From: Betaproteobacteria bacterium
Lineage (GTDB): Bacteria > Pseudomonadota > Gammaproteobacteria > Burkholderiales > Rhodocyclaceae
Assembly (NCBI GenBank): GCA_020621405.1
Contig: JAHRYN010000001.1
Span: forward strand, 434,001 to 498,000
Length of the DNA: 64,000 nucleotides
Reading direction: 5' to 3'
Shown here: piece after piece, positions 7,851 through 55,584 of the stretch
How the letters are laid out: every line of letters begins with the position of its first letter
Position numbering within the stretch: the stretch's first letter is position 1
The notes under the pieces: generated by a model
The model's input: only the letters and a program-made list of their open reading frames with translations
Databases searched by the model: none
What the model was told of the DNA's origin: nothing
Translations under genes and position numbers: made by a program

Positions 7851-7859
7851 GGTGCCACG

Positions 7860-9610: not shown

Positions 9611-9625
9611 GGGGAGATTCAGGCA

Positions 9626-11149: not shown

Positions 11150-11155
11150 GTGCTG

Positions 11156-11515: not shown

Positions 11516-11542
11516 GGTCGTCTCCTGCTACATGGGGGATGC

Positions 11543-12318: not shown

Positions 12319-12345
12319 GGCCGTTCTCCTGAGAGAGATGCCTCT

Positions 12346-12374: not shown

Positions 12375-12387
12375 TGTGATGCCTCAT

Positions 12388-12619
12388 GGCGTTCTCCCGT
12401 CCAAGAATCGCCCATCGTAGGCCGGGAATAGCGAGCCTTCATGCATCAATCCGACCGCCCGCACCCCGCATTGGCGATGGACGATCGATGCCCGGCGTCC
12501 TATACCCAAATGGTTAAAGGCCAAAGGGCCGAAAGGGCAAGGGAATGGGGCGCAAGGGGAAAGGCCCTACCTGAAAAGGCGAAAAGGCCTCCCGGCCGGC
12601 CCGCCAACAGGACACCTAC
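12388..12619. other. Gap between antitoxin promoter and relaxase gene; purine-rich tract
   Basis: This 230-base stretch has no convincing gene. Bases 12516-12590 on the + strand are strikingly purine-rich, with repeated AAAGG/AAGGG units, ending in GC-rich GGCC repeats just before the relaxase ribosome-binding site. It holds the relaxase promoter. Because MobH relaxases often act on an oriT next to their own gene, this is a reasonable oriT candidate, but no nic site can be named from sequence alone. Confidence 0.35.
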
Positions 12620-14485
12620 ATGCTCTCCTTGTTCCAGCGAAAAAGGGTCTCTGTCGCCCCCGCTCCGTCGCCAGCACCTGCCATCGATCTCCCGAAAGGG
12701 CTGCTGCGGCCAGAAGCCGCCGCAGCGCTGCTGGCAACACCGCGCCGGCAGAAACTGCTGGAACACATCTGGCAGCGCACGTCGCTGTCGCGCAGGCAGT
12801 TCGCCACCCTATACCGCGCACCGCTGGAGCGCTACGCCGAGCTGGTCCAGCAGTTCCCCGCCTCCGAAAACCACCACCATGCCTACCCGGGCGGCATGCT
12901 GGACCACGGCCTGGAGATCGTCGCCTATAGCCTCAAGCTGCGACAGTCCCATCTGCTGCCCATCGGCGCCAGCCCTGAGAACCAGGCCGCGCAAGCCGAA
13001 GCCTGGACGGCCGCCGTCGCCTATGCCGCTCTGCTGCACGACATCGGCAAGATCGCGGTCGATCTGCACGTCGAACTGGCCGACGGCAACACCTGGCATC
13101 CCTGGCACGGCCCGTTGCACCAGCCGTACCGCTTCCGCTACCGCGACGATCGCGAGTATCGCCTGCACAGTGCCGCGACAGGCTTGCTCTACCGCCAGCT
13201 GCTTGACCGCCAAGTCCTGGACTGGCTCAGTGGCTATCCGGCGCTATGGGCGCCGCTGCTCTACGTCCTGGCTGGCCAGTACGAGCACGCCGGGATACTG
13301 GGCGAGCTTGTCGTGCAAGCCGACCGTGCCTCGGTAGCGCAGGAGCTGGGCGGCGATCCGGCGCGCGCCATGGCCGCACCCAAGCATGCGCTGCAACGCA
13401 AGCTACTCGACGGGCTGCGCTATCTGCTCAAGGAAGAGTTGAAACTGAACCAGCCCGAGGCCTCCGATGGCTGGCTCACCGAGGACGCGCTGTGGCTGGT
13501 GAGCAAGACGGTCTCCGACAAGCTGCGTGCGCACCTGCTATCCCAGGGCATCGATGGCATCCCGGCGAACAACACGGCGGTGTTCAATGTGCTGCAGGAC
13601 CACGGTATGTTGCAGCCCACACCGGACGACAAGGCGGTCTGGCGGGCGACCGTGACCAGCCCCAGCGGCTGGTCTCACTCGTTCACGCTGCTGCGCATCG
13701 CTCCTGCGCTGATCTGGGAATCTGGCCAGCGGCCGACACCGTTCGCTGGCACCGTGGTAATCGACGTAGCGCCTGCAGCCAAAGATACCGATGCTTTCGT
13801 ACCCCCGGCCGCGATCGCGACAAAGCCAGCCGCCGAGGGTCAGGAGCCGAAGCGTTGGGAGGAAAGCGGCGACATCGCTGCCCAGGCTCCCCCGCCCGCT
13901 TCCCCGGCCATGCCCGATGCCATGGAAGACATGTTAGCTATGGTAGGCATGGGCGATCCGCCCGACGTTTCTCACAATGAGCAGGCCGATACAGCCAACA
14001 CATCTGCCGCACGCTCCGAGGCTCCTATGCCGACTATGGCTGTGACCTCGCCAACGTCGCCTGTATCCACGGCCATAGCTGCACCGCCACCCTTAAGCGC
14101 ACGGCCATCCGGTGAGCATTTCATGGAGTGGCTGCGCCAGGGTATCGCTTTACGCAAGCTCATCATCAATGATGCGAAGGCGCTCGTGCATACCGTGAGC
14201 GACACCGCGTATCTGGTCAGCCCTGGCGTGTTCCAGCGGTACGCACAAGAACACCCACAAGTGGGCATGCTGGCAAAGCAGGAGAGCCAACAAGATTGGC
14301 AATGGGTGCAAAAGCGCTTCGAGCGGGCGCAGTTGCATCGCAAGCATCCCAACGGCTTGAACATCTGGGCCAGCGAAGTGACAGGTCCGCGAAAATCACG
14401 GCGCCTGCATGGCTACCTTTTGCAAGACCCCCATTTGTTGTTTACGGAGGTGCCTCCAAACAATCCGTATCTGTCGTTGATCTGA
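12620..14485 (+). CDS. traI: MobH-family relaxase (TraI_2 / HD-domain type)
   Basis: A 621-residue enzyme that nicks the ICE at oriT and leads the strand into the recipient. The N-terminal TraI_2 domain shows the MobH triple-His motif (H-H-H at 85-87) and the HD signature L-L-H-D-I-G-K (His140, Asp141), further His residues around 160-183, and an unstructured Pro/Ala-rich linker (about 395-490). The C-terminal DNA-binding domain (about 500-615) is the usual TraI_2_C region. AGGAC precedes ATG 12620. The gene is intact. Confidence 0.92.
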   Translation: MLSLFQRKRVSVAPAPSPAPAIDLPKGLLRPEAAAALLATPRRQKLLEHIWQRTSLSRRQFATLYRAPLERYAELVQQFPASENHHHAYPGGMLDHGLEIVAYSLKLRQSHLLPIGASPENQAAQAEAWTAAVAYAALLHDIGKIAVDLHVELADGNTWHPWHGPLHQPYRFRYRDDREYRLHSAATGLLYRQLLDRQVLDWLSGYPALWAPLLYVLAGQYEHAGILGELVVQADRASVAQELGGDPARAMAAPKHALQRKLLDGLRYLLKEELKLNQPEASDGWLTEDALWLVSKTVSDKLRAHLLSQGIDGIPANNTAVFNVLQDHGMLQPTPDDKAVWRATVTSPSGWSHSFTLLRIAPALIWESGQRPTPFAGTVVIDVAPAAKDTDAFVPPAAIATKPAAEGQEPKRWEESGDIAAQAPPPASPAMPDAMEDMLAMVGMGDPPDVSHNEQADTANTSAARSEAPMPTMAVTSPTSPVSTAIAAPPPLSARPSGEHFMEWLRQGIALRKLIINDAKALVHTVSDTAYLVSPGVFQRYAQEHPQVGMLAKQESQQDWQWVQKRFERAQLHRKHPNGLNIWASEVTGPRKSRRLHGYLLQDPHLLFTEVPPNNPYLSLI

Positions 14486-35271: not shown

Positions 35272-36689
35272 CGACGTCCTCCGCACCGGTCGATGGCGCC
35301 GCCGACGCATTGCAGGTTCTGCGCAACCGCACCTTCGACGAGATCGCCATCGGCGACAGCGCCAGCCTCGAACGCGCGTTTTCGCCGCAAGACATCCACA
35401 TGTTCGCGCTGCAATCGGGCGATGTGGATCCGGAATCTTCGGTGTCTTCGCCCTCGCGGGACACCACGGAGGCCATTTGTGCAAACGTCCTGATCTCGGC
35501 TGTGCTGGGAACACGCCTGCCGGGGCCTGGAACCCAATATGTCAGCCAGAACCTGCGCTTGCTCGGAGCCGTTCGGCCCGGCGACAGGCTGACCGTGCAG
35601 ATGCAGGTGAGCAGCAAGGACACGGCCACCCATCACGTCACGCTGGACTGCACCTGCACCAGCCAGGAGGGGGTGGCGATTTTCCAAGGCCAGGTAGAGG
35701 TCGTAGCGCCCACTGAGCGCATTGAAAGAACGCGCACGGCGTTGCCGGAAATCCATCCGGATGCGCAGGGCCGCACAGGCCTGCAGCACCTGCTGGCGCA
35801 TGTCGCGCACTTGCAACCGATTCGGGTAGCCGTCGTCCATCCGTGCGATGTCCCCAGCCTGTCCGCTGCGCTTGAAGCGCGCCACGCGGGGTTGATCGAG
35901 CCGGTGCTGGTCGGGCCACGAGGGCGGCTCGAAGCAGTCGCCACCGAGGCCGGGCTGGATCTGGCCGACGTCGCCATTGTGGACGTCCGGCACAGCCACG
36001 CCGCTGCGCAGCAAGCCGTCGCCTTGGCAGCCGCAGGTGAAGTCGAAGCCCTGATGAAAGGGAGCCTGCACACCGACGAGCTGATGTCCGCGCTGGTTTC
36101 GGCAGCAGCGGGGTTGCGCACCAAGCGCCGGGTCAGCCATTGCTTCCTGTTGCAGACACCGGCCTATCCGCGCCCGTTCATCGTCACCGATGCAGCGATC
36201 AATATCGCCCCGACTCTGGAACAGAAGGCAGACATCATCCGCAACGCCATCGAGCTGGCGCAGGTGATCGGCGTGCGCGAACCCAAGGTCGCAATCCTGG
36301 CCGCAGTCGAGACGGTCAGCCCGACGATGACGGCCACGCTCGACGCGGCGGCGCTGTGCAAGATGGCCGATCGCGGCCAGATCACTGGCGGCCTGCTCGA
36401 CGGGCCGTTGGCCTTCGACAACGCGATCTCCATCGCCGCTGCGCGTACCAAGGGGATCGTCTCCGAGGTCGCCGGGCAGGCCGACATCCTTGTCGTGCCT
36501 GACTTGGAGAGCGGCAACATGCTTGCCAAGCAGTTGATATTCCTGGGCGGCGCAGCCAGCGCCGGAATCGTCCTCGGAGCGAAAGTGCCGGTCATTCTGA
36601 CCAGCCGCGCCGACTCGCGCGATACACGCATCGCCTCATGCGCGATTGCACTGATGCTGGCGCACCACTATCGGCTGTCACCCCCGTGA
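35268..36689 (+). CDS. MaoC-like domain fused to phosphate acetyltransferase
   Basis: 473 residues. The N-terminal 150 form a MaoC/R-hydratase hot-dog fold. The C-terminal 310 are a phosphate acetyl/butyryltransferase (G-S-L-H-T-D-E-L, S-H-C-F-L-L, V-T-D-A-A-I-N-I-A-P, G-G-L-L-D-G-P-L-A-F-D). It would convert acetyl phosphate plus CoA to acetyl-CoA. In the MaoC part the usual G-D-x-N-P-x-H reads G-D-V-D-P-E-S: the Asp is kept but the catalytic His is replaced, so hydratase activity is doubtful. Overlaps the DUF3141 gene by four bases. Confidence 0.88.
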   Translation: MTTSSAPVDGAADALQVLRNRTFDEIAIGDSASLERAFSPQDIHMFALQSGDVDPESSVSSPSRDTTEAICANVLISAVLGTRLPGPGTQYVSQNLRLLGAVRPGDRLTVQMQVSSKDTATHHVTLDCTCTSQEGVAIFQGQVEVVAPTERIERTRTALPEIHPDAQGRTGLQHLLAHVAHLQPIRVAVVHPCDVPSLSAALEARHAGLIEPVLVGPRGRLEAVATEAGLDLADVAIVDVRHSHAAAQQAVALAAAGEVEALMKGSLHTDELMSALVSAAAGLRTKRRVSHCFLLQTPAYPRPFIVTDAAINIAPTLEQKADIIRNAIELAQVIGVREPKVAILAAVETVSPTMTATLDAAALCKMADRGQITGGLLDGPLAFDNAISIAAARTKGIVSEVAGQADILVVPDLESGNMLAKQLIFLGGAASAGIVLGAKVPVILTSRADSRDTRIASCAIALMLAHHYRLSPP

Positions 36690-36732: not shown

Positions 36733-37485
36733 ATGAAGTACTCATTTTCTGGCCGCGTAGCCCTGGTAACCGGTGCAGGATCCGGCATTGGCGAGGCCAT
36801 CGCGCGACTTCTTGCGAGTAACGGCTTGAGTGTCGTCGTCTCGGATGTCAGTGCCGACAATGCCGAGCGCGTCGCCAAGCTCATCGACACCGATGGCGGC
36901 CAAGCCGTGGCCAATGTGGCCGACGTGGCAAGCATCGACCAGGTTCAGGCTGCTGTGGCCTGCGCGGTCGATACGTTTGGCGACCTTCATTTCGCGGTCA
37001 ACAACGCCGGTATCAGTGGCGACCAGAGCCCAGTGGGCGAACTGGACCCTGCCGCCTGGAGCCGGGTGATTGATGTCAACCTGAACGGCGTGTTCTATGG
37101 CCTGCGCTATCAGATTCCCGCGATCCTTCGTTCAGGAGGTGGTGCCATCGTCAACGTCTCTTCGATCCTGGGGGTGGTCGGCGATGCAGCGAACCCCGCG
37201 TACGTCGCAGCCAAGCATGCTGTGACCGGGCTGACCCGGTCGGCAGCGCTCGCTTATGCGGCCAAGGGGATCCGAATCAACTCGATCCATCCTGGTTACG
37301 TGCGTACGCCCATCCTGGATTTCCTGGGTGAATCGGCCCTTCAGGAGGCCGTCGGCCTGCACCCGATCGGTCGCCTGGGCACCCCGGACGAAATCGCCCA
37401 TGCCGTGGCGTTTTTGTTATCGGAAGGAAGCAGCTTCTTTGCGGGCACCCAGCTCATCGCCGATGGCGGCTACACAGCGCGCTGA
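36733..37485 (+). CDS. Short-chain dehydrogenase/reductase
   Basis: A 250-residue classical SDR: T-G-A-G-S-G-I-G, N-N-A-G-I, Ser in N-V-S-S-I-L-G and Y-V-A-A-K. An Asp at the end of beta-strand 2 (V-V-V-S-D-V) points to NAD(H). It belongs to the 3-oxoacyl-ACP reductase / 3-hydroxybutyrate or glucose dehydrogenase-like group; the substrate cannot be named. In the operon it could oxidise 3-hydroxybutyrate or related alcohols, giving an NAD-linked counterpart to PhaB. GGAGG precedes ATG 36733. Confidence 0.85.
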   Translation: MKYSFSGRVALVTGAGSGIGEAIARLLASNGLSVVVSDVSADNAERVAKLIDTDGGQAVANVADVASIDQVQAAVACAVDTFGDLHFAVNNAGISGDQSPVGELDPAAWSRVIDVNLNGVFYGLRYQIPAILRSGGGAIVNVSSILGVVGDAANPAYVAAKHAVTGLTRSAALAYAAKGIRINSIHPGYVRTPILDFLGESALQEAVGLHPIGRLGTPDEIAHAVAFLLSEGSSFFAGTQLIADGGYTAR

Positions 37486-37561
37486 GTCTGACGACGATGA
37501 GAGCGCAGGCATACCCGAACACCGTGGCGACGTCACCGGGGCTGGGCAAAAAGAGGACGAC

Positions 37562-38803
37562 ATGATGGATGCGACCAAGGCCCGCTCCTGGCGCCCCGAG
37601 CACGGACTGATCCTTGTGCTGAACTGCGGTTCATCCAGCATCAAGTTTGCCGTGTTCGACCCCTCGGCCACGCCACTGCCTCGCCAGGCGTTGTGGAATG
37701 GCAAGGTGCAGGGAATCGGCGGCGCCGATCCGGATTTCGGAGAGACCGGGGTTGCGCCGTTCCCGATCGAACTGGATACGGCACGTCCATATCGCGCCGC
37801 ATTGCGCCTCATCCGCGATCGAGTCAGTCAGCGACTCGATGGCCGCCGGATCGGTGCGGTCGCTCATCGGATCGTCCACGGCGGCAGTAAATATTTCGAG
37901 CCAGTTCGCGTGGACCTCCAGGTACTCACCGATTTGCAGGAATACATCCCGCTCGCGCCACTGCACCAGCCATTCGCGCTGGAGGCCATCGATATCCTGC
38001 TGCGCGAACGGCCGGAGCTGCCGCAGGTGGCCTGCTTCGATACCGGCTTCCATCACAGCATCCCTAAGATCGAGCGGGTTCTGCCGTTGCCCTATGCCGC
38101 ATGGGAGCGCGGTCTACGCCGGTATGGATTTCACGGCCTGTCGTATGCGTACATGGCGGTGGCCTTGCCCGAGCGCCATGGCGACGCGGCGCGCAGGCGC
38201 ACCATCGTTGCCCACTTGGGCAGTGGCGCCAGCCTGTGCGCCATGCAGGGGCTCCAGAGCGTCGCCACCACCATGGGTTTCTCCGCACTTGACGGCCTGA
38301 TGATGGGTACCCGCACCGGCGCGCTCGATCCAGGCGCCGTGCTCTACCTGATGGAGATCGAAAAGCTTTCACTGGAACAAGTGGGGCGTGTTCTCTATCA
38401 CGAGTCCGGTCTGCTCGGCGTTTCGGGCATCTCGGCCGAGCCGCGCATCATTGTCCGGCACGAGAACGATGAAGGCGAAACGGGTGAGCGAGCGCGTTTG
38501 GCGCTGGCCCTCTACGTGCGTCGCATCGTGCGCGAGATCGGTGCCTTGGTCGCTGTTCTGGGCGGCCTGGACATGCTCGTGTTCACGGCGGGCGTCGGTG
38601 AACACAACGCCTTCATTCGCGAGCGCGTCTGTGCGGCACTGAGTTTTCTTGGCGTTGCCCTGGATACTGACGCCAACGCCAGCGACGCGGCGACGATTTC
38701 CCCCGACCACAGCCAAGTCATCGTGGCAGTCGAACCCACCAACGAAGAATGGATCGCCGCCAGCCATGCGCTGTCCTGCCTGGACAGGGGGAAGGTGCGA
38801 TGA
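37562..38803 (+). CDS. ackA: Acetate kinase
   Basis: 413 residues of the acetate/propionate kinase family: N-C-G-S-S-S-I-K-F at the N-terminus, H-R-I-V-H-G-G, F-D-T-G-F-H, Y-G-F-H-G-L-S-Y, the H-L-G-S-G-A-S-L phosphate loop and F-T-A-G-V-G-E-H. It converts acetyl phosphate and ADP to acetate and ATP. With the phosphotransacetylase two genes upstream and the phosphoketolase-like enzyme at 44728 it gives a substrate-level phosphorylation route. ATG 37562 or 37565. Overlaps the next gene by four bases. Confidence 0.93.
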   Translation: MMDATKARSWRPEHGLILVLNCGSSSIKFAVFDPSATPLPRQALWNGKVQGIGGADPDFGETGVAPFPIELDTARPYRAALRLIRDRVSQRLDGRRIGAVAHRIVHGGSKYFEPVRVDLQVLTDLQEYIPLAPLHQPFALEAIDILLRERPELPQVACFDTGFHHSIPKIERVLPLPYAAWERGLRRYGFHGLSYAYMAVALPERHGDAARRRTIVAHLGSGASLCAMQGLQSVATTMGFSALDGLMMGTRTGALDPGAVLYLMEIEKLSLEQVGRVLYHESGLLGVSGISAEPRIIVRHENDEGETGERARLALALYVRRIVREIGALVAVLGGLDMLVFTAGVGEHNAFIRERVCAALSFLGVALDTDANASDAATISPDHSQVIVAVEPTNEEWIAASHALSCLDRGKVR

Positions 38804-40185: not shown

Positions 40186-41937
40186 TTGACAAAAAATAAG
40201 AAAGGTAATACTTCATCGACAATCGTTCCGGCACTGGATATGCAAGCGCATATGGCTTGGGCCCAGGCTTGGTCCTCAATTTCACCTGAATCGTCGCTGT
40301 TGGCTTGGACTGATTGGGCAAGCCATTTAGCGAACAGCCCCGGAAAGCAATCGGAGCTTTTGGCTTTTGCAGGCTCCTTGTCTGAGCAATGGATGTCTCT
40401 GCTGAAAAAGAGCTTGGTCAGTCCGGACCAGGAAGTTGCATCTCCTGAACCGTCACCTACCAATGACCGTCGTTTCAACGATCCGGCATGGGATCAATGG
40501 CCCTACAACCTTTTCCGCAGTTCCTTTCTTATTCAATCCAAATGGTGGGAGCAAGCAACGCAAGGTGTATGGGGTGTTGATCCACAACACGAACGCCTAT
40601 TGGCGTTTGGCGCAAAGCAATGGCTGGAAATGGTATCGCCGACCAATTCTGCACTTTTTAACCCCGTTGTCCTGAAAAAAACGATAGAAGAACAAGGCGC
40701 CAATCTGGCGCGTGGCATGTCCAACTTTCTCGATGATCTGCGCCGACAACTATCCGGTGAGCCTCCTGCGGGAACCGAGAACTTCGTCGTTGGGCGCGAC
40801 GTGGCGGTGACGGAAGGAAAAGTCGTACTGAGGAATCAATTAATCGAGTTGATTCAATACACGCCCACTACCGCGAAAGTCCATCCTGAGCCAATACTGA
40901 TCATTCCTGCCTGGATCATGAAGTACTACGTACTCGATCTATCTCCCCATAACTCGCTGATACGGTATCTCGTTGCACAAGGCCATACGGTTTTTTGCAT
41001 CTCCTGGAAAAATCCGGATGCTAGTGATCGAGACTTGGGCATGGATGAGTATCTTGAGTTCGGCTTGCGTGCGGCGCTGGACGCCGTGACATCCATCGTC
41101 CCCGAGCAGGGAATCCACGCGGCTGGCTATTGCCTGGGCGGGACATTGCTGTCTATTGGGGCCTCAGCCATGGCGCGCGATGGCGATACGCGGCTGGTGT
41201 CCGTAAGCCTCCTGGCTGCGCAGACGGACTTCAGCGAGCCGGGCGAGCTGAGTGTTTTCATCAACGAGAGTCAAGTGGCGCTGTTGGAGGCCAGCATGGC
41301 TCAAACCGGCTATTTGACCCCCGAACAGATGAGTGGAGCTTTCCAGTTATTGCGTGCCTACGATCTCATCTGGTCTCGCATGATTGACGAATACCTGTTG
41401 GGCGATCGTCGGCCAATGACCGACCTGATGGCCTGGAATGCCGATGGGACTCGCCTGCCTGCGAAGATGCATTCGCAGTATCTCCGGCGCCTTTACCTGA
41501 ATAACGATCTCAGCGCAGGGCGTTATCCCGTCGCGGGTCGCCCGGTTTCAGTGGGAGACATCGCTGTACCGATGTTTTGCGTCGGCACTGCCACGGATCA
41601 TGTTGCGCCTTGGCACTCCGTTTACAAGCTGCATCTCCTGTCTTCGGCCGAGCTGACTTTCGTGTTGACCACTGGCGGGCACAACGGCGGCATCGTGAGC
41701 GAGCCCGGCCGAGGTAAGCGCCAATATCAAATCCATACCCGCGCAGCCGGTGATGGATACATGGCGCCGGATGAGTGGCAAGCGACGGCGCAGACGCATC
41801 CGGACTCCTGGTGGCCGGCATGGTCGGCATGGCTGCGAGAGCGTTCCGGTGATGTTGTTGCGCCTCCGCTCATGGGGGCCGAATCCAGTGGATACCCCAC
41901 TATTTGCGATGCCCCAGGGGAATATCTACGCAACTGA
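40186..41937 (+). CDS. phaC: Class I poly(3-hydroxyalkanoate) synthase
   Basis: 583 residues, the length of class I PhaC. The N-terminal helical domain is followed by the hydrolase domain with lipase box G-Y-C-L-G-G (Cys316), Asp471 (T-D-H-V-A-P) and His499 (G-G-H-N-G-G). It polymerises (R)-3-hydroxybutyryl-CoA from PhaB into PHB. The start is TTG 40186 with GAGGT ten bases upstream; the first in-frame ATG (40240) would remove 18 residues. The first third is visibly richer in A and T than flanking genes, suggesting a separate origin. Confidence 0.93.
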   Translation: MTKNKKGNTSSTIVPALDMQAHMAWAQAWSSISPESSLLAWTDWASHLANSPGKQSELLAFAGSLSEQWMSLLKKSLVSPDQEVASPEPSPTNDRRFNDPAWDQWPYNLFRSSFLIQSKWWEQATQGVWGVDPQHERLLAFGAKQWLEMVSPTNSALFNPVVLKKTIEEQGANLARGMSNFLDDLRRQLSGEPPAGTENFVVGRDVAVTEGKVVLRNQLIELIQYTPTTAKVHPEPILIIPAWIMKYYVLDLSPHNSLIRYLVAQGHTVFCISWKNPDASDRDLGMDEYLEFGLRAALDAVTSIVPEQGIHAAGYCLGGTLLSIGASAMARDGDTRLVSVSLLAAQTDFSEPGELSVFINESQVALLEASMAQTGYLTPEQMSGAFQLLRAYDLIWSRMIDEYLLGDRRPMTDLMAWNADGTRLPAKMHSQYLRRLYLNNDLSAGRYPVAGRPVSVGDIAVPMFCVGTATDHVAPWHSVYKLHLLSSAELTFVLTTGGHNGGIVSEPGRGKRQYQIHTRAAGDGYMAPDEWQATAQTHPDSWWPAWSAWLRERSGDVVAPPLMGAESSGYPTICDAPGEYLRN

Positions 41938-42024: not shown

Positions 42025-42519
42025 ATGTACTCAAGACTCCTGGTTCCGCTCGACGGAAGTCCTACCGCCAATTTGGCGCTCCACCACGCTGCGGTGCTGG
42101 CACGCCTGAATGGCGCAACCATCGTCTTGCTGCACGTCATCGAGGAGATGAAGCACAGCAACGGCTTCGAGAGGCCGAGGATCTATATTGAAGAAGTGAG
42201 GCCGGGCTTCCTGGCGGCCGGGCAGAAGCTGCTGGACGAGGCGGCGCTGCGGCTGAGGCAGGAAGGCTTGGCGGTTGAGACCGTCCTTCTGGAAAGCAAG
42301 GGCGAGCGCGTCTCGGTGCTCATCGCTCAGCAGGCACTGACCACTCAATGCGAGTTGGTGGTGCTGGGCACCCACGGACGTCGGGGCGTGGACAGGCTGC
42401 TGCTGGGAAGCGATGCAGAGCAGCTCGCTCGCATCGCACCAGTTCCGGTGATGCTGGTACGCCAGCCCCATTCTGTCATTGCTACTGCAACCCCTGGGCA
42501 CGGTGGCATGCCAGCGTGA
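42025..42519 (+). CDS. Universal stress protein (UspA family)
   Basis: 164 residues with a single Usp domain. The ATP-binding pattern G-T-H-G-R-R-G, nine residues, G-S is complete (115-129). The N-terminal strand reads L-L-V-P-L-D-G-S. Usp proteins accumulate under starvation, low oxygen or respiratory block. TGGAGAT precedes ATG 42025. The stop overlaps the GTG start of the next gene (GTGA). Position in the PHB/acetate cluster fits an energy-stress role. Confidence 0.92.
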   Translation: MYSRLLVPLDGSPTANLALHHAAVLARLNGATIVLLHVIEEMKHSNGFERPRIYIEEVRPGFLAAGQKLLDEAALRLRQEGLAVETVLLESKGERVSVLIAQQALTTQCELVVLGTHGRRGVDRLLLGSDAEQLARIAPVPVMLVRQPHSVIATATPGHGGMPA

Positions 42520-43792: not shown

Positions 43793-44689
43793 ATGCAACG
43801 ACTCACCCTGGCCCTACCCGGCAATGAAGATCTGGCCCGCGGCATCGCGCAGGCATGCGGCAGCGAAGCCGGCCGCATCGAAACGCGCCGATTCCCCGAT
43901 GGCGAGAGCTATGTCCGGTTGCATGGCGAACCTGCCGATCGGATCGTGGATGTGATTTGCACGCTGGCCCATCCTGATCCGCAGTTCCTGCTTCTGGCTT
44001 TTGCCGCTGACGCGGCGCGCGAACTTGGCGCGCAAGAGGTGAACCTGATCGCACCGTATCTGGCCTACATGCGCCAGGACAAGCGATTCCATGACGGAGA
44101 AAGCGTGACGTCGCGGTCCTTCGCACGTCTGGTCTCATCGACCTTCGACAAGCTGCTCACGGTGGATCCGCATCTGCACCGCTATCCGACACTATCAGCG
44201 GTCTACACGATCCCCACCATCACCTTGCATGCCGCACCACTGCTGGCCGACTGGATCGCGAATCATGTCGAAGAACCTTTGATCGTGGGCCCCGACGAGG
44301 AAAGCGAGCAGTGGGCCGGCGCCATCGCGTCCCGCATCGGCGTACCGCACGCTGTGCTTCGCAAGACACGCCATGGCGATCGCAGCGTGGACATCGATGT
44401 TCCCGACCTGTCGATCTGGCGCGGCAGAACGCCGGTGCTTGTGGACGACATCGCATCATCAGGCCGCACGCTCGCCGTCGCGGCGCGCAAGCTCGCCGAG
44501 CAAGGAATGCGCAAGCCGGAGTGCGTAGTGGTGCATGCCCTGTTCGCCGAGGATGCCTGGGCCCAATTGACACCGTTGTTTGCCCGAATTACGTCCACCG
44601 ACGCAGTACCGCATCCGAGCAACCGGATTGGTCTCGCTTCGCTGATTGCCGACGCTCTCTCTAGCGGGAAAACCGATCCGCGAGGCTGA
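43793..44689 (+). CDS. prs: Ribose-phosphate diphosphokinase (PRPP synthetase) family
   Basis: 298 residues, shorter than typical bacterial Prs (about 315) and resembling the compact archaeal-type enzymes. Motifs: F-P-D-G-E-S near 34, catalytic loop M-R-Q-D-K-R-F near 93-99, and the PRPP-binding V-L-V-D-D-I-A-S-S-G-R-T (215-226). It interconverts ribose 5-phosphate plus ATP and PRPP plus AMP. GGAG lies eight bases before ATG 43793. It heads a four-gene run with short gaps, each preceded by a strong ribosome-binding site. Confidence 0.9.
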   Translation: MQRLTLALPGNEDLARGIAQACGSEAGRIETRRFPDGESYVRLHGEPADRIVDVICTLAHPDPQFLLLAFAADAARELGAQEVNLIAPYLAYMRQDKRFHDGESVTSRSFARLVSSTFDKLLTVDPHLHRYPTLSAVYTIPTITLHAAPLLADWIANHVEEPLIVGPDEESEQWAGAIASRIGVPHAVLRKTRHGDRSVDIDVPDLSIWRGRTPVLVDDIASSGRTLAVAARKLAEQGMRKPECVVVHALFAEDAWAQLTPLFARITSTDAVPHPSNRIGLASLIADALSSGKTDPRG

Positions 44690-44727
44690 TCTTTTTATCG
44701 ATCCAACTATTTTCAAGGAGACCTGAA

Positions 44728-47106
44728 ATGTCCTCTCAAGCTAACCTCGCAACCGATTGGCGTGCTGGTTACGGGCCCATCGCGCACAGGTCTGAAACCA
44801 TCGAACGTATGCAGGCCCTCGTGCAACGTCTGGTCGCGCAAAGGCGTATAGCAGACGAAGCCTCGGCCCATGCGCTGCTGGCTGCAGCCGACCGGGTGGC
44901 CTGCACGGCCATGAGCGTAGTGGCGCATATGACCTATGCCCGGCGCATCGACCGAAGCGGCTGCCCACTGGGCTCCGATGATTTCAAACAAACGCCCGAA
45001 GGCCACACCGGCGGCTCGCTCAACATGGTGCCAGCCTTCGTGGGTTATCTGTTGGCCAACGCGCTGACCGGGACGACACGCGGCTGGCTCATGGGGCAGG
45101 GGCACTGCGTGGCCGCGATCGAGGCGGTGAACGCACTGACCGGCGATGTATCCGCCGCCCAGCGTGGACGCTACGACCGCAGCGAGGCGGGCCTGTCGCT
45201 CCTGATCGCGGACTTCTACTCCTATGCCATCGATAAGCAGGGTCGGCCCGCGGTACCGCTGGGTAGCCATGCCGGGCCGAACACGGCCGGCGCGATCTCC
45301 GAAGGCGGCTATCTGGGGTTCGCCGGGCTGCAGTATGTGCACACGCCGTTGCCGGGAGAAAGCCTGGTGGCATTCCTCAGTGATGGCGCTTTCGAGGAAC
45401 AACGTGGCTCGGACTGGGCGCCGCGCTGGTGGCGCGCCGAGGACTGCGGCTTCGCCATCCCGGTCATGATTCTCAACGGACGGCGCATCGAGCAGCGCAC
45501 CCAGATCGTGCAGGAAGGTGGCGCTACCTGGCTGGCCGAGGACCTGCGCCACAACGGCTTCGATCCGGTCATCGTTGATGGACGTGATCCGATGGCGATC
45601 GCATGGGCCATTGTTGAAGCCGAAGACACGCTGAGCGCCTTCGCTGCACGCTCGGATCGGCGCTATCCGGTCAAGCTGCCCTACGTGATCGCCGAGACGG
45701 AGAAAGGTTTTGGCTTCCCGGGCGCGGCGACCAATGCCGCCCACAACCTGCCGCTGAACGGCAATCCGCGCGAGGATGCGCAGGCACGCGAGGCCTTCAA
45801 CGCAGGGGCTGCGGCGCTGTTCGTGCCCGAGAGCGAACTGGAAAACGCGCTCACCGTCCTTGCGAATCACGGCCAGAGCCAGCGCTCGCGCGAAAGCGAG
45901 CACCCCATGGCCCTACGCCATCCAGCGAGCCCTCATCTGCCGATGCCGGCCTGGGCGCCAACTGAGGTATCGGGCAGCGCCATGTCCGCACTGGACCGTT
46001 GGTTCGTGGAGCTAGTGCAGGCAAATCCACAGTTGCGCATCCGGATCGGCAATCCCGATGAACTGGCCAGCAACAAGATGGGGACCACGCTAGCGCTGCT
46101 CAAGCACCGCGTCAACGTGCCCGAACCCGGCGCCCCGGAATCGACGGATGGCTCGGTGGTCACCGCACTCAATGAAGAAGCCGTTGCGGCCGCCGCCCTC
46201 GCCAACAAAGGGGGGCTGAACCTGATCGTCAGCTACGAGGCATTCGCGGTCAAGATGCTTGGATTGATGCGCCAGGAGATCATCTTCGCGCGTCGGCAGA
46301 AGGAGCTGGGCCAGCCGCCAGGCTGGATCTCCGTCCCGCTGATCGTCACATCCCACACCTGGGAGAACAGCAAGAACGAGCAGTCACACCAGGACCCGAC
46401 CATTGGCGAAGCATTGCTGGGGGAGATGTCGGACACCGCACGCGTGTTGTTCCCGGTGGATGCCAACACGGCGTGCGCCGCGCTGCGAGCGGTCTACGCC
46501 AGCCGGGGCCAAGTGGCTTGTGTTGTGGTCTCCAAGCGCGACACGCCGAATCACTTCAATGCCGCCGCCGCTCAATCGCTGATCGAGCACGGCGCAGCCC
46601 ATGTAGCCGGCGATCCGGCTACAGCACAACTGCAGTTCGTGGCGATTGGCGCCTACCAGTTGGAGGAAGCGCTCAAAGCCCACGCCCGCCTGGGGCACCA
46701 TGGGTTTACGTCGTGCGTCACCGTGGCGATCGAGCCCGGCCGTCTGCGCATTCCACGAGACGACCTTGAGGCCGCCTTCGTGCTCGGTGACGAAGCACTG
46801 CAAGCGCTCTTCCCGCCTCACCTGCCGCGCGTGTTGATGAGCCATACCCGCCCTGAGCCGATGCTGGGCGTGCTGCGCCGCATTGACAGCGGCCCCTCGA
46901 AGACGCGGGCTTTGGGCTACATCAACCGCGGCGGCACACTCGATGTGGCTGGAATGCTGATCGCCAACCGCTGCACCTGGGCGGACGCCATCTATGCGGC
47001 TGCGCAAGTGACCGGCTGGAACAGTTCGCAGGTTGCTGCGGCCGCGACCGACGCGCGAATTTCAAGTGGTTCTGACGCGGTCCGCGGCGACCGCGCCGGT
47101 TCCTGA
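44728..47106 (+). CDS. Divergent phosphoketolase-family (XFP) thiamine-diphosphate enzyme
   Basis: 792 residues, the length of phosphoketolases. TPP-enzyme blocks are recognisable: P-E-G-H-T-G-G-S-L-N, S-H-A-G-P-N-T-A-G-A-I-S-E-G-G, the Mg/TPP loop S-D-G-A-F-E-E, V-S-Y-E-A-F and S-H-Q-D-P. It differs from classical Xfp at several signature blocks (for example H-W-G-T-x-P-G is replaced by H-T-G-G-S-L-N). Relatives are sometimes labelled xylulose-5-phosphate 3-epimerase. Acetyl phosphate formation from xylulose or fructose phosphate is likely but unproved. AAGGAG precedes ATG 44728. Confidence 0.8.
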   Translation: MSSQANLATDWRAGYGPIAHRSETIERMQALVQRLVAQRRIADEASAHALLAAADRVACTAMSVVAHMTYARRIDRSGCPLGSDDFKQTPEGHTGGSLNMVPAFVGYLLANALTGTTRGWLMGQGHCVAAIEAVNALTGDVSAAQRGRYDRSEAGLSLLIADFYSYAIDKQGRPAVPLGSHAGPNTAGAISEGGYLGFAGLQYVHTPLPGESLVAFLSDGAFEEQRGSDWAPRWWRAEDCGFAIPVMILNGRRIEQRTQIVQEGGATWLAEDLRHNGFDPVIVDGRDPMAIAWAIVEAEDTLSAFAARSDRRYPVKLPYVIAETEKGFGFPGAATNAAHNLPLNGNPREDAQAREAFNAGAAALFVPESELENALTVLANHGQSQRSRESEHPMALRHPASPHLPMPAWAPTEVSGSAMSALDRWFVELVQANPQLRIRIGNPDELASNKMGTTLALLKHRVNVPEPGAPESTDGSVVTALNEEAVAAAALANKGGLNLIVSYEAFAVKMLGLMRQEIIFARRQKELGQPPGWISVPLIVTSHTWENSKNEQSHQDPTIGEALLGEMSDTARVLFPVDANTACAALRAVYASRGQVACVVVSKRDTPNHFNAAAAQSLIEHGAAHVAGDPATAQLQFVAIGAYQLEEALKAHARLGHHGFTSCVTVAIEPGRLRIPRDDLEAAFVLGDEALQALFPPHLPRVLMSHTRPEPMLGVLRRIDSGPSKTRALGYINRGGTLDVAGMLIANRCTWADAIYAAAQVTGWNSSQVAAAATDARISSGSDAVRGDRAGS

Positions 47107-47141
47107 TTTCACAACCCACCAACAAGAGAGGAGACAAATAC

Positions 47142-48500
47142 ATGCTCTCATTGACCAGCCTGGGTGGTGCCGGCACCGTCACCGGCTCCAAGCACCTTAT
47201 CACCCATGGCAATACCCGCATCCTGATCGACTGCGGACTGTTCCAGGGATTGAAAAACCTGCGCGAACTTAATTGGCAGCGCCTGGCCGTTGAACCCAAG
47301 GACATCGATGCGGTCGTACTGACGCATGCGCACCTGGATCATTGTGGGTATCTGCCCCGATTGGTGCTGGACGGGTTCCGCGGGAAGATTTTCTCGACCT
47401 CAGCCACGCGAGATGTCGCCGAACTCATCCTGCTCGACAGTGCCTGGTTGCAAGAGAAGGACGCCGAGTTCGCCAATCGAAAAGGATTTTCCAAACACAA
47501 GCCAGCCCTTCCGCTGTATCGGGTTCGGGATGCAGAACGTGCGCTCCTGCAGTTCAAACCGGTGCCGCTGCATCAAGAGACGGAATTGCCGGGCAATGCC
47601 CGTCTACTGCTGCGCAGCGCTGGTCACATTCTTGGGGCGGCGACGGTTCAGATCGACATTGGCGGCAAGCGTTTGGTGTTCTCCGGCGACCTGGGGCGCT
47701 ATGACGATGTGGTCATGCCTGATCCTGAACCCGTCACGGCAGCGGACTACATCATCATCGAGTCCACCTATGGCAATCGTCGTCATGACCGTTCCGATGC
47801 CGTCGAAGCGCTGGGCGACATCATCGAGCGCACGACTCGCCGCGGAGGCACCGTAGTGATTCCCGCTTTTGCCGTTGGACGCGCGCAGTCGTTGATCTAT
47901 GACCTATGGCTGTTGCGACAGCGCGGTCGGCTCCGCACCGTGCCCGTCTATCTGGACAGTCCCATGGCCACCAGCGCAACTGCGCTGCTGCACCGCCATG
48001 CCGACGACCACAAGCTCGCACAACACGATTTCGAGGCGGCATTCTCAGAAGTCACATACATGCGCGACGTTGAAGAGTCCAAGGCGCTATCGGCGAATCG
48101 CTACCCCAAGGTGATTATTTCCGCCAGCGGCATGGCCACCGGTGGCCGCGTGCTGCATCACATAGAAGCGTTTGGCGGCAGTCATCAGAACACGCTGCTG
48201 TTCTCTGGATTCCAGGCAGCAGGTACGCGCGGACGCAAGCTGCTTGAGGGCGCTCGCGAAGTCAAAATTCATGGGCGCTGGATGCCGATCAAGGCGGAGG
48301 TCGCCGAGCTTGCGATGTTGTCGGCTCATGCCGACAGCGATGAGCTGATGCGATGGCTGCGCAGCTTTACCAAGGCACCGGAAAGAGTGTTCATTGTTCA
48401 CGGTGAATCCGATGCCTCCGAGGCGCTGCGCGAACGTATCCAGCGCGAACTCAATTGGCACGCATCGGTGTCCATGCAAAACCAGGAATTCGCCCTGTGA
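47142..48500 (+). CDS. Beta-CASP metallo-beta-lactamase RNA nuclease
   Basis: 452 residues. The metal motif H-A-H-L-D-H is at 62-67. Further ligands lie in the S-A-G-H-I-L-G (about 160), F-S-G-D-L-G and S-A-H-A-D regions, and a C-terminal RMMBL segment is present (I-K-A-E-V to V-H-G-E). This is the CPSF-like group, mainly archaeal and Thermus-type, with endo- and 5'-3' exoribonuclease activity. Beside a nucleoside phosphorylase and PRPP synthetase it could supply nucleotides from RNA. GAGGAG precedes ATG 47142; overlaps the next gene by four bases. Confidence 0.87.
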   Translation: MLSLTSLGGAGTVTGSKHLITHGNTRILIDCGLFQGLKNLRELNWQRLAVEPKDIDAVVLTHAHLDHCGYLPRLVLDGFRGKIFSTSATRDVAELILLDSAWLQEKDAEFANRKGFSKHKPALPLYRVRDAERALLQFKPVPLHQETELPGNARLLLRSAGHILGAATVQIDIGGKRLVFSGDLGRYDDVVMPDPEPVTAADYIIIESTYGNRRHDRSDAVEALGDIIERTTRRGGTVVIPAFAVGRAQSLIYDLWLLRQRGRLRTVPVYLDSPMATSATALLHRHADDHKLAQHDFEAAFSEVTYMRDVEESKALSANRYPKVIISASGMATGGRVLHHIEAFGGSHQNTLLFSGFQAAGTRGRKLLEGAREVKIHGRWMPIKAEVAELAMLSAHADSDELMRWLRSFTKAPERVFIVHGESDASEALRERIQRELNWHASVSMQNQEFAL

Positions 48501-50014
48501 GTGCCCGCATCACCCCCCAGACACCCGCCTTGCAAGCATTGCGCATGCGACTGCATGCCCAGCATCAACCCGTCGTCTTGATGCGTACCGATTGCCATGT
48601 CTGCCGTGCCGAAGGGCTGGCACCGCGGTCACAGGTACTGATCATTGCCGGCGACCGCACTGTGCAAGCGCTACTGTACCAAATCGACAGCGATCTGCTC
48701 AAAACCGGACAGATCGCTCTGTCCGAGGCCGCCTGGGATGCCCTGGACATTCATGAGGGCGATCTTGTGCAGGTTCGGCATCCTCCGCTGCTCGAATCGT
48801 TGTCGGCCGTGCGTGCGCGAATTCACGGCCACCGACTGCAAACGACGGAGTTGCAGGCGATCGTCCGTGATGTGGTCGATGGTCGCTATACCGATGTCGC
48901 ACTTTCGGCCTTCCTGACCGCAACGGCGGTACTGCCTCTGGATATGCAAGAGACCATCCATCTCACCCGTGCGATGGTCGATGTCGGAGATCACCTGCAA
49001 TGGCAGGCTCCGATTGTTGTGGACAAGCATTGCGTGGGCGGATTACCGGGAAATCGCACCACGCCGTTGGTGGTTGCCATCGCCGCAGCCAATGGATTGG
49101 TGATGCCCAAGACCTCATCACGCGCCATCACCTCTCCCGCTGGCACCGCGGACACCATGGAAACGCTGGCTCCTGTAGACCTGGACCTGGATACGCTCAG
49201 AAAGGTCGTGGAGAAAGAGGGTGGATGCGTGGCGTGGGGCGGCGCGATGCACCTCAGCCCCGCGGACGACATCTTCGTGCGTATTGAGCGTGAACTGGAT
49301 ATCGACACGCAAGGACAACTGATTGCCTCGGTGTTATCCAAGAAGATTGCAGCAGGGGCGACCCACATCGTGATCGATATTCCGGTTGGGCCAACCGCAA
49401 AAGTCCGCAGCCGGGAAACTGCCGAGCATCTTGCGCATCACCTTTCGGAAGTCGCCGCGTCATTTGGCCTTGTATTGCGTTGCCTGTTTACAGACGGGAA
49501 TCAGCCTGTCGGCAGAGGTATCGGCCCGGCGTTGGAGGCGCGCGACGTGTTGGCCGTATTGCGCAACGAGGCGGATGCGCCGCAAGACCTATGTGACCGC
49601 GTGGCGTTGGTCGCGGGCGCGGTGCTTGAGCTTGGCGGTGTCGCCAAAGAAGGGGACGGACTTCGGTTGGCTCACGAGACGATCAGCAGTGGCCGCGCCT
49701 GGGAAAAATTTCAGAGAATCTGCGCGGCTCAGGGGGGATTTCGTGAGCCGCCCCAAGCTCTCTATGTCGAACCGCTTTTGGCAACCACTTCAGGCCGAGC
49801 AGTACACATCGACAACCGTAAGCTGTCCCGTTTAGCCAAATTAGCCGGAGCGCCTGAGAGTCCAGCCGCAGGGATTCAATTGCAAGTGCGCTTAGGTGAC
49901 GAGGTAACACGCGGACAATCATTGATGTTTTTGCATGCGCAAACCTCTGGAGAGATGGCCTATGCACTCGCATACGTGCATGACATTGGTGACATCGTAA
50001 AGATTGAACCTTAG
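48497..50014 (+). CDS. Long-type thymidine/AMP phosphorylase family protein
   Basis: 505 residues, the length of archaeal AMP phosphorylases and the 'type 2' thymidine phosphorylase group, with an extra N-terminal domain (1-85) before the classic fold. Phosphate and catalytic blocks: K-H-C-V-G-G-L-P-G-N (about 180) and S-S-R-A-I-T-S-P-A-G-T-A-D-T-M-E. It would split nucleosides or NMPs with phosphate to base and ribose 1-phosphate or ribose 1,5-bisphosphate. The substrate cannot be told by eye. GTG 48497 overlaps the nuclease stop (GTGA). Confidence 0.87.
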   Translation: MSARITPQTPALQALRMRLHAQHQPVVLMRTDCHVCRAEGLAPRSQVLIIAGDRTVQALLYQIDSDLLKTGQIALSEAAWDALDIHEGDLVQVRHPPLLESLSAVRARIHGHRLQTTELQAIVRDVVDGRYTDVALSAFLTATAVLPLDMQETIHLTRAMVDVGDHLQWQAPIVVDKHCVGGLPGNRTTPLVVAIAAANGLVMPKTSSRAITSPAGTADTMETLAPVDLDLDTLRKVVEKEGGCVAWGGAMHLSPADDIFVRIERELDIDTQGQLIASVLSKKIAAGATHIVIDIPVGPTAKVRSRETAEHLAHHLSEVAASFGLVLRCLFTDGNQPVGRGIGPALEARDVLAVLRNEADAPQDLCDRVALVAGAVLELGGVAKEGDGLRLAHETISSGRAWEKFQRICAAQGGFREPPQALYVEPLLATTSGRAVHIDNRKLSRLAKLAGAPESPAAGIQLQVRLGDEVTRGQSLMFLHAQTSGEMAYALAYVHDIGDIVKIEP

Positions 50015-53348: not shown

Positions 53349-55283
53349 CTATGCGCCGTCCAGAACCACGGCGCTGTCCACCATTCGGCGAACGCTCTGC
53401 CGCACCTCCTCTGGGATAGGCCGCGGTGGGACTGTCTCTGGCGCATTCGCATGGAACTGGCCGCTTGCGATGACCTGGACCACCATGCCCAGATTGCTTG
53501 GCGTCACCAAATCGATGGCCGCGCGATCGCCCAGGTCCGGGTGTGGCCGGGTCAGCATGCGGTAAAGCTCCCACGAATCCGCTTGCGGACACTGGCGCAT
53601 GAGCACCTGGGCCAGCTTGTGCTTGAGCGGCACCAGTTGCCAATCGGGAACTCGCTGGCCCCGGTTGCCCAAGCTGACGGATAGCAGTTTGCCGGCCTTC
53701 AACTCGCGGTTGATCTGGTCTTTGGACTTCCCGGCCAACTTGCCGAACAGGGGGACCGGCAGGCTGCTCGGCGATTCATAGATGGCCAGCATTTCCTCGC
53801 GCTCGCGCTGGATGGCAGATACTTCCGGTTCTGGCGCATGCGTCGGAGGCGGCGGCACCTGCGACAGCCGCTGGAACGTGATGCTCCCGTCGTTCGGCGT
53901 CACGACGATGGGAGCGGTCACCATCGACGGAACGGGTGCCGCAGAGGACGCTGCAACGATGGCGTCGGGCTTGTCCTCCTCTGCCATGGCCGGCACGCCC
54001 TCGATGTGAATGGTGAGGTGCGCGCTGGCCGCCTCCACCTGGCCCTGTTCGAGCAGGTCGAGGCGATCCGCCCAGTCCTGCATCATCCGGCGGCGCGGCT
54101 CAACGTACTTGGCATGGTTGTAAGCCGAACTCACCTTGTTCGGGTCGGAGTGCGAGAGCTGCGCGTCCACCCAAATCTTGGGGTAGCCGATCTCGTTGAG
54201 CGCCGTCGAAATCGTTCCCCGGATGCCGTGGCCGGTCAGTTGGTCCTCGTAGCCCATCCGCTTCAAGGCGGCATTGAGGGTGTTCTCGCTGATGCGCTTC
54301 TTGAGTTCGCTGCGGTGCGCCAGCAGGTGGCGCTGGGCCGGCCGTATCACCCCCAGAAGGTAGCTCACGATCTCGATGGCTTGAAGGGACAGCGGTACGA
54401 TGTAGGGCGGCACATCCTGGGGGCGCTTGCCGGCCTTGCGCATCTCATCCTGAAGCTGCTTGACGATCTGGGGTGGAATGATCCAGAGGCCGCGGTCCAG
54501 GTCGAACTGATCCGGGGTCGCCAGCCGCAGCTCGCCGGTTCGCACCCCGGTCAGGAACAGCAGCCGGATGCCGAGCTGGGTCTGCCAGCCACGCGGGTTG
54601 TAGAGCCGGAGCTTCTGAAGGAATTCCGGCAGCTCGGGCAAATGCAAGTACGGGTTGTGGTTCACCGGAGGCTTGGGCTCCGCCACCACATCCAGGTCAG
54701 AAGCCGGATTGGCCTCCAGCCCCTCGACGATCACGAGGGCATAGCGGAACAACTGGCTCAACCAGGTGCGGACCTTTTCTGCCGTGGTGAAAGCCTTGCG
54801 TTCCTCGATTCTTGCCAGGACGCCCAGAAGCTGGGGCCGGCGAATGTCGTAGATCGACATCTTCCCGAGGGCGGGCAGCACGTCCTTGCCGAAAATCCGC
54901 AGGATCTGCGAGAGGGTGCTTTGACGGCCTTCCTTGAGTTCCTTGCGCCGATGCTCGACCCAGGCATCGAAGACCGCCTTGAACGTGTAGTCGGCCGCCA
55001 GCTTCACGGCATGGCGTTTCTGCTTGCGGTCGGTGTGAGGGTTGATGCCCCTAGCCAAGAGTGCGCGGGCTTCGTCGCGCAAGGTACGCGCTTCACGCAG
55101 GCCGATCTCGGGGTAGTTGCCCAGGGAGATGCGCTTTTGCTTGCCGAGCCAGTAGTAGCGCAGGTGCCACGATTTGCCGCCGGTAGGGGCGACCACCAGG
55201 CCGAGGCCATCGGTATCGGGGAGGCTGTAGGTTTTGTCAGCGGCCTTGGCTTGCCGCACAGTCAGATCAGAGAGTGCCATCAT
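53349..55283 (-). CDS. int: P4-type tyrosine integrase of the ICE (IntB13-like)
   Basis: 644 residues. Residues 1-100 form the DUF4102 arm-binding domain and 100-200 the core-binding domain. The catalytic set is Arg248 (T-G-V-R-T-G-E), His352 and Arg355 (G-H-G-I-R), His378 and Tyr388 (S-S-A-Y-N-H). About 230 residues follow the normal end (near 415), as in the 657-residue IntB13 of ICEclc. The gene starts 225 bases from tRNA-Gly and reads away from it. It excises and inserts the ICE at the tRNA 3' end. Confidence 0.93.
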   Translation of the reverse strand: MMALSDLTVRQAKAADKTYSLPDTDGLGLVVAPTGGKSWHLRYYWLGKQKRISLGNYPEIGLREARTLRDEARALLARGINPHTDRKQKRHAVKLAADYTFKAVFDAWVEHRRKELKEGRQSTLSQILRIFGKDVLPALGKMSIYDIRRPQLLGVLARIEERKAFTTAEKVRTWLSQLFRYALVIVEGLEANPASDLDVVAEPKPPVNHNPYLHLPELPEFLQKLRLYNPRGWQTQLGIRLLFLTGVRTGELRLATPDQFDLDRGLWIIPPQIVKQLQDEMRKAGKRPQDVPPYIVPLSLQAIEIVSYLLGVIRPAQRHLLAHRSELKKRISENTLNAALKRMGYEDQLTGHGIRGTISTALNEIGYPKIWVDAQLSHSDPNKVSSAYNHAKYVEPRRRMMQDWADRLDLLEQGQVEAASAHLTIHIEGVPAMAEEDKPDAIVAASSAAPVPSMVTAPIVVTPNDGSITFQRLSQVPPPPTHAPEPEVSAIQREREEMLAIYESPSSLPVPLFGKLAGKSKDQINRELKAGKLLSVSLGNRGQRVPDWQLVPLKHKLAQVLMRQCPQADSWELYRMLTRPHPDLGDRAAIDLVTPSNLGMVVQVIASGQFHANAPETVPPRPIPEEVRQSVRRMVDSAVVLDGA

Positions 55284-55508: not shown

Positions 55509-55526
55509 TGGAGCGGGAAACGAGGC
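55509..55526 (-). other. Predicted right attachment core of the ICE
   Basis: The last 18 bases of tRNA-Gly, ending in TTTCCCGCTCCA, correspond to the 18-bp direct repeat known from ICEclc-type integration at tRNA-Gly(GCC). The partner copy should lie beyond the left edge of the window and is not seen, so the exact borders are inferred. Confidence 0.65.
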
Positions 55527-55584
55527 TCGAACTCGCGACCTCAACCTTGGCAAGGTTGCGCTCTACCAACTGAGCTATTCCCGC
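55509..55584 (-). tRNA. tRNA-Gly (anticodon GCC)
   Basis: 76 bases reading GCGGGAATAGCTC from 55584. The acceptor stem GCGGGAA pairs with TTCCCGC, the anticodon loop holds GCC (T-T-GCC-A-A), the T-loop is TTCGAGC, and an encoded CCA follows TCCCGCT at 55511-55509. All four arms fold. The gene is intact because the ICE restores its 3' end. Confidence 0.97.

Follow-up and report, generated by a model that had tools for sequence, protein, structure and literature searches.

A 64,000-nt stretch of contig JAHRYN010000001.1 from a Betaproteobacteria bacterium (hereafter, the window; host genome 3.80 Mb in 12 contigs) carries four tightly packed genes on its forward strand. They encode a paralog of the phosphoribosyl pyrophosphate (PRPP) synthetase Prs, a divergent phosphoketolase (XFP-like), a nuclease of the metallo-beta-lactamase (MBL)/beta-CASP type, and a long-type thymidine/nucleoside monophosphate (NMP) phosphorylase family protein (TP) (Table 1). 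The intergenic gaps are 38 nt between the Prs and XFP-like genes and 35 nt between the XFP-like and nuclease genes, and the TP gene overlaps the nuclease gene by 4 nt. Judged by the sequence, the TP gene most likely starts at the GTG at 48497; searches with this protein began at 48500, one codon short of that start. The original prediction for this DNA had described four genes of these families with short gaps or overlaps, and we found the open reading frames where it had placed them, all on the same strand. It had also described strong ribosome-binding sites, which applies to the first three genes: AGGAG-type sites can be read off the sequence ahead of the Prs, XFP-like and nuclease genes. 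Across positions 43400-50300, promoter-like and terminator-like matches showed no excess over shuffled sequences, and an RNA-fold scan gave no signal above shuffles.

A conserved four-gene module

To survey the neighborhoods of XFP-like genes, genome representatives were scanned with the XFP-like protein, and the best 80 of at least 589 matching stretches were kept. One partial locus (L018) was left out and the window was included; clustering at 90% identity of the XFP-like protein then produced 46 groups, which span the alpha-, beta- and gammaproteobacteria as judged from the organism names. All four genes occurred together in 24 of the 46 groups. Near the XFP-like gene, the nuclease was found in 39 groups, TP in 29, Prs in 26 and acetate kinase in 19, counting same-strand neighbors within about 9 kb above identity floors and including nuclease paralogs of about 40% identity as well as loci shortened by contig ends. 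Several XFP-like loci adjoin acetate kinase, or a nuclease relative of about 40% identity, without TP.

Because these groups represent the nearest relatives, we also surveyed 397 genomes from the phylum of the host, assumed from the named relatives to be Pseudomonadota. The XFP-like protein (at least 755 bits) was present in 15 genomes, including that of the host, and was separated by a clear gap from other phosphoketolase matches, which reached at most 87 bits. Long TP (E value of 1e-80 or better) was present in 47 genomes, with 50 matches, the window among them. At 44 of these 50 matches, a module-type Prs was encoded on the TP strand no more than 4.5 kb away; at 41 it was directly downstream of TP (at most 190 nt between the aligned parts), and at none of the 50 places did the neighboring Prs fit the housekeeping type better; the six matches lacking Prs were L175 and the five with the lowest scores (L227-L231). 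A nuclease was near 22 of the 50 matches and a phosphoketolase of either kind near six. By these counts TP is linked more closely to Prs than to any phosphoketolase, and no other pair in the survey is linked as tightly. Long TP and any phosphoketolase shared 16 genomes, compared with 8.3 expected (p = 0.0036, Fisher, not corrected for relatedness); for the XFP-like protein alone the figures were 4 and 1.8 (p = 0.09), and for genomes with only a canonical phosphoketolase 12 and 6.5 (p = 0.02).

The four genes are a real, conserved module, and their adjacency is not rare in other genomes, rarity being what the original prediction had named as its refutation. Chance adjacency was rejected because the linkage recurs in both the 46-group set and the 397-genome survey; it is incompatible with the group and TP-Prs counts given above.

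Carriage on mobile DNA

The module is horizontally spread, partly on transferable DNA. The window differs from a locus of Eoetvoesiella caeni (L009) by only 8 mismatches in 20,797 nt, and the DNA past the 3' end of the tRNA-Gly gene differs between the two. With an integrase at a tRNA gene, conjugation genes and a boundary at the tRNA 3' end, the carrier has the hallmarks of an integrative conjugative element, as expected from the mobile element that had been proposed for this DNA. Copies with a mean DNA identity of 89-99% were found in Achromobacter, Variovorax, Brachymonas, Pigmentiphaga, Thauera, Zoogloea and Tolumonas (4.4 kb only in the last). The left end of the element was not found by a tRNA-repeat search, which gave one further copy, 10.9 kb away on the other side. 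That further copy of the repeat from the tRNA 3' end is at G000:C12:500375, and phage-like genes (tape measure, DUF927/Toprim) lie past the tRNA-Gly gene at 56745-62527.

Megablast of the module DNA against plasmids gave two matches with a query coverage of 7-8%. At the protein level, XFP-like relatives of 49.5-68% identity were found on 15 plasmids, 10 of them typed as conjugative. Among the 10 plasmid records whose neighborhoods were examined, seven hold the four-gene set and three do not. The order Prs-XFP-MBL-TP occurs on plasmids of Paracoccus AK26, Rhizobium rosettiformans, Novosphingobium, Agrobacterium and Pseudorhizobium, and the order MBL-TP-Prs-XFP on those of Sulfitobacter and Paracoccus sediminicola. 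Upstream of the module on R. rosettiformans plasmid p2 lies arcA-argF-arcC-adk-usp, encoding arginine deiminase, ornithine carbamoyltransferase, carbamate kinase, adenylate kinase and a universal stress protein (Usp). On a Phenylobacterium plasmid the XFP-like gene is followed by an NAD-dependent phosphogluconate dehydrogenase gene, with FixJ nearby, and on an Alteromonas plasmid acetate kinase is immediately ahead of the XFP-like gene. The Pseudorhizobium plasmid has RbbA with HlyD ahead of the module.

Table 1. Genes of the module and other features of the window.
Feature	Position	Strand	Basis or remark
Prs paralog, PRK07199 type	43793..44689	+	PDEES..W in place of the PDxGG loop; catalytic residues retained
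Divergent phosphoketolase, XFP-like subfamily	44728..47106	+	Pfam domains, residues, fold matches
MBL/beta-CASP/RMMBL nuclease	47142..48500	+	metal-site motifs intact; nearest solved relative, ribonuclease TTHA0252
Long-type thymidine/NMP phosphorylase family protein (TP)	48497..50014	+	GTG start; 4-nt overlap (GTGA) with the nuclease stop codon
Phosphate acetyl/butyryltransferase, weak MaoC-like N-terminus	35268..36689	+	domain match
Acetate kinase	37256..38803	+	domain match
Polyhydroxybutyrate (PHB) polymerase (PhaC), context gene	40186..41937	+	domain match
Universal stress protein (Usp), context gene	42025..42519	+	domain match
Tyrosine integrase of carrying element	53349..55283	-	domain match; beside tRNA-Gly
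tRNA-Gly(gcc), insertion site	55509..55584	-	near-identity to Eoetvoesiella caeni L009 stops within the 3' end, ~55524
Conjugation genes	1971..14485	+	TraC 1971-4844, TraG_N 9626-11149, TraI_2 12620-14485; assumed part of element

Predicted activities of the encoded proteins

TP carries the Pfam domains Glycos_trans_3N, Glycos_transf_3 and PYNP_C and exceeds the NCBIfam cut-offs of PRK04350 (672 bits, cut-off 434) and TIGR02645 (580, cut-off 434.6), and it falls below that of TIGR03327, AMP_phos (481 vs 535 bits). Its closest solved relative is 4ga5 (1.1e-105, aligned from residue 40), also of the long form with an N-terminal domain, titled a putative thymidine phosphorylase in its entry and presumably the AMP phosphorylase of Thermococcus. 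A PKTSSRAITS motif is invariant across 29 module TPs and is also found in 4ga5. The Thermococcus AMP phosphorylase acts on all natural 5'-mononucleotides, according to the consulted part of PMC8376864.

The nuclease matches Lactamase_B, Beta-Casp and RMMBL in Pfam, and its metal-site motifs (HxHxDH and the metal ligands) are invariant in 37 sequences. An assignment to Cas14 of type VII CRISPR systems was rejected, the protein scoring below the NF045584 cut-off (393.7 vs 800 bits). The "mixed ancestry" that had been suggested for the four genes holds only with respect to the nearest solved structures, which are archaeal for Prs and TP and from Thermus for the nuclease.

The module Prs (Pfam Pribosyltran_N and Pribosyltran) matches PRK07199 with 437 bits (cut-off 322). 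The host already holds a housekeeping Prs, which scores 402 bits with a model that gives the module protein 186 bits, and the module Prs is therefore a second copy. Residues F34, D36, E38, R94, Q95, H127, K191, R193, D218, D219 and T226 are each kept in at least 93% of 69 sequences, and the catalytic residues are identical in three comparison proteins, namely the host housekeeping Prs and two archaeal Prs. The loop that usually reads PDxGG is PDxES..W in the module type (E170 in 69/69, S171 in 66/69 and W174 in 68/69); the comparison protein of Methanocaldococcus jannaschii, with PDKGA, itself departs from GG. In Escherichia coli Prs, D170 of this loop holds Mg and the C1-C3 hydroxyls of ribose 5-phosphate (R5P), as described in the section of PMC9232217 consulted; in our reading of the alignment, D168 of the module Prs would be the equivalent residue.

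The XFP-like protein passes the cut-offs of both Pfam XFP (145.5 bits) and XFP_N (39.8), and it misses every listed NCBIfam phosphoketolase cut-off by far (best 132 vs 962 bits); XFP_C had no match in the host genome. Compared with 15 canonical phosphoketolases, H64, H97, H142, E479, Y501, N549, H553 and K605 are conserved in all 95 XFP-like sequences (taken without dereplication, the window copy being counted twice) and H320 in 94 of them, in a numbering assumed to be that of the 3ahc chain minus 20; R442 is variable. We presume K605 to be a catalytic position, and the list of catalytic residues otherwise follows the excerpted text of PMC10547157. The predicted structure has a mean pLDDT of 75.4 with poorly modelled active-site loops; its top 20 fold matches are all phosphoketolases, followed by transketolases. 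The fold and the catalytic histidines are thus shared with the phosphoketolases of Bifidobacterium, Lactococcus and cyanobacteria, whereas identity to these is only about 20% and H548, Q321 and F551 are replaced. We read the XFP-like protein as a probably active enzyme with an altered substrate pocket. A dead paralog is unlikely because the catalytic residues are conserved. Relatives on 14 of the 15 plasmids (H3-H17) are recorded under the name xylulose 5-phosphate 3-epimerase, which the fold and residues argue against.

Association with low oxygen

In 8 of the 46 loci, the 250 nt ahead of the first module gene contain a box resembling FNR/FixK sites with at most one mismatch, as compared with a mean of 0.54 and a maximum of 5 in 2000 draws of random windows. 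When two mismatches were allowed, 16 sites were found in 13 loci, against 4.4 sites expected. Three surveyed genomes (G035, G149 and G281), which we guess from size and gene order to be Bradyrhizobium-like, hold TP-Prs-MBL (L186, L187, L226) apart from a phosphoketolase-acetate kinase pair (L204-L206), and this phosphoketolase belongs to the canonical type (24-26% identity).

The same named families respond to low oxygen in Bradyrhizobium diazoefficiens, a likeness drawn by family name. There, the genes for TP, Prs and MBL (bll3117-bll3116-bll3115) and those for phosphoketolase and acetate/propionate kinase (bll2518-bll2517) form two predicted operons, both with motifs listed upstream, that depend on FixK2: the delta-fixK2 fold changes are -6.6 for bll3117, -30.6 for bll3115, -10.0 for bll2518 and -10.2 for bll2517, with none given for bll3116 (PMC9104804, in part). 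In microoxia the proteins rise by log2 values of 2.9 (MBL), 4.4 (Prs), 2.1 (TP) and 4.3 (phosphoketolase), and the transcripts 15.4-, 7.7-, 5.1- and 8.2-fold, respectively (PMC6515984, Table 2). Unlike the joined set of the window, these are two separate operons, and the parts of PMC9104804 and PMC6515984 consulted propose no pathway for them. In Burkholderia cenocepacia, the low-oxygen lxa locus includes an MBL protein, a phosphotransacetylase and Usp proteins, as do the module and its surroundings by gene description; the words phosphoketolase and phosphorylase are absent from the main text of PMC6127331. The energy-yielding context that the original prediction envisaged is borne out by the acetate kinase neighbors in 19 of the 46 groups, by the arginine deiminase genes of R. 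rosettiformans and by the FixK2-dependent relatives in Bradyrhizobium.

A candidate route from nucleotides to ATP

The module probably serves to make ATP at low oxygen, with two of its enzymes on divergent branches of known families. Our best explanation, to which we give about even chances, is a horizontally spread module for substrate-level phosphorylation at low oxygen that leads from nucleotides through acetyl phosphate to ATP. The beta-CASP nuclease would release NMPs from RNA, and the long TP would phosphorolyze these to free base and ribose 1,5-bisphosphate (R15P), as does the Thermococcus AMP/NMP phosphorylase. The divergent Prs, mostly encoded beside TP, would act on R15P or on the pool of pentose phosphates and AMP; xylulose 5-phosphate would come from the host enzymes RpiA and Rpe, both encoded in the genome, the XFP-like enzyme would convert the ketose phosphate to acetyl phosphate, and acetate kinase would use the latter to form ATP. 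Gene content, conserved linkage, intact catalytic residues and mobility are observed; each reaction and the direction of flow we infer. The earlier pathway reading stands as regards a real and mobile module in an energy context, whereas RNA as the fuel, PRPP formation by this Prs and the use of xylulose 5-phosphate by the XFP-like enzyme are conjectural. A type II glyceraldehyde-3-phosphate dehydrogenase gene lies near the module or the XFP-like gene in nine loci (L130, L080, L072, L061, L122, L087, L082, L085 and L121), and its product is a possible outlet for the triose product.

The scheme resembles the archaeal pentose bisphosphate pathway, in which Thermococcus uses an NMP phosphorylase, R15P isomerase and Rubisco, and which also has a non-carboxylating haloarchaeal form (PMC9700705, in part). 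Both have a long-type phosphorylase and would feed the ribose of nucleotides or nucleosides into central metabolism. In contrast to the archaeal pathway, the module has a Prs paralog beside the phosphorylase, and phosphoketolase with acetate kinase where archaea use Rubisco or an aldolase (no Rubisco search was made in the host). Searches of an open-licence library yielded no description of the module pathway, nor of AMP phosphorylase and phosphoketolase together.

Several observations weigh against this route. No R15P isomerase scored over the cut-off in the host genome, as had been anticipated from the window, the only IF-2B homologue being MtnA, and the best match to PhnN reached 53.9 bits against a cut-off of 156; to our knowledge, R15P isomerase and PhnN are the known users of R15P. 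A Prs making PRPP would compete with the XFP-like enzyme for pentose phosphate. The XFP-like pocket is changed (H548 to K and F551 to Q in 95/95, Q321 to N in 93/95). Of the 47 long-TP genomes, 31 have no phosphoketolase match of either type, and 11 of the 15 XFP-like genomes lack long TP. As for regulation, 38 of the 46 loci have no FNR/FixK-like box upstream; no FNR box precedes the operon of the window, which has 2 matches in its whole length against a chance mean of 0.98; and the column for direct FixK2 targets reads "-" for the Bradyrhizobium MBL, Prs, TP and phosphoketolase genes in the table of PMC6515984.

A second explanation, which we regard as possible but clearly the less probable, is that two cassettes share one oxygen signal. 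TP-Prs(-MBL) would turn over nucleotides, and the XFP-like enzyme with acetate kinase would make ATP from ordinary pentose phosphates; their proximity would serve co-regulation and transfer rather than a single chain of reactions. For either cassette, most of the genomes that have it lack the other, pairs of acetate kinase and XFP-like exist without TP, G035, G149 and G281 keep the two sets apart, and in Phenylobacterium the XFP-like gene is paired with phosphogluconate dehydrogenase. Yet 24 of the 46 groups have all four genes together, their order takes at least two forms, and long TP coincides with phosphoketolases beyond expectation.

If TP makes R15P, its consumer must be one of the module enzymes, Prs or XFP-like, or some other host enzyme; otherwise TP would act on nucleosides. 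The frequent TP-Prs pairing, together with the changed Prs loop, suggests that Prs may be the user. In a more specific proposal, which is speculative and which we think rather unlikely to be correct, Prs would not be a PRPP synthetase at all but a phosphotransferase acting on R15P, whose C1 phosphate it would pass to AMP (or ADP), yielding R5P and ADP. Paired with an NMP phosphorylase, this enzyme would save the energy held in the N-glycosidic bond of RNA nucleotides, R5P would pass through the altered phosphoketolase to acetyl phosphate, and RNA would be an anaerobic ATP reserve with no need for an R15P isomerase.

Also rather unlikely is a role in salvage, in which Prs would make PRPP and a reversible TP, working with R15P and bases, would rebalance nucleotides rather than burn them. 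The retained catalytic residues of Prs agree with this, as does R15P in Thermococcus, a node that also permits conversion of nucleosides to NMPs (PMC9700705, in the part consulted); against it stand the housekeeping Prs already present in the host, the missing PDxGG loop with its invariant E170, and the energy-metabolism context of acetate kinase and, on one plasmid, arginine deiminase genes. That the XFP-like protein is not a phosphoketolase, but what its record name says, is very improbable: the epimerase name in the plasmid records, the scores far below the NCBIfam cut-offs and the lack of an XFP_C match are outweighed by the retained phosphoketolase catalytic residues, the first-ranking phosphoketolase folds and the frequent acetate kinase neighbor, and, in their titles and abstract openings, none of the papers using the epimerase name concerns the XFP-like family.

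Should the route from nucleotides to acetyl phosphate and ATP prove true, many such bacteria would have, in part on mobile DNA, a means of surviving the loss of oxygen in which nucleotides, perhaps from their own RNA, are converted to ATP. This would also assign a role to the TP-Prs pair, which roughly one in ten surveyed genomes carries (47/397 with long TP), and to a divergent phosphoketolase subfamily that is called an epimerase in sequence records, and it raises the question of the fate of R15P in bacteria that lack R15P isomerase.

Neighboring genes

Just upstream of the module, on the same strand, lie genes for DUF3141, phosphotransacetylase, acetate kinase, a Na/glutamate symporter, PHB polymerase, Usp and LpxR. 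The DUF3141 gene is immediately followed by that of the phosphotransacetylase with the weak MaoC-like start (together 32704-36689). The LpxR-type outer membrane protein is encoded at 42348-43589, between Usp and Prs, and its relatives occur near XFP-like genes in 7 of the 46 groups. Further upstream, at 24943-30302, are genes for an outer-membrane efflux protein and for an ABC/ABC-2 transporter, and 3 of the 46 groups encode relatives of this ABC protein (more than 50% identical) near the XFP-like gene on the same strand.

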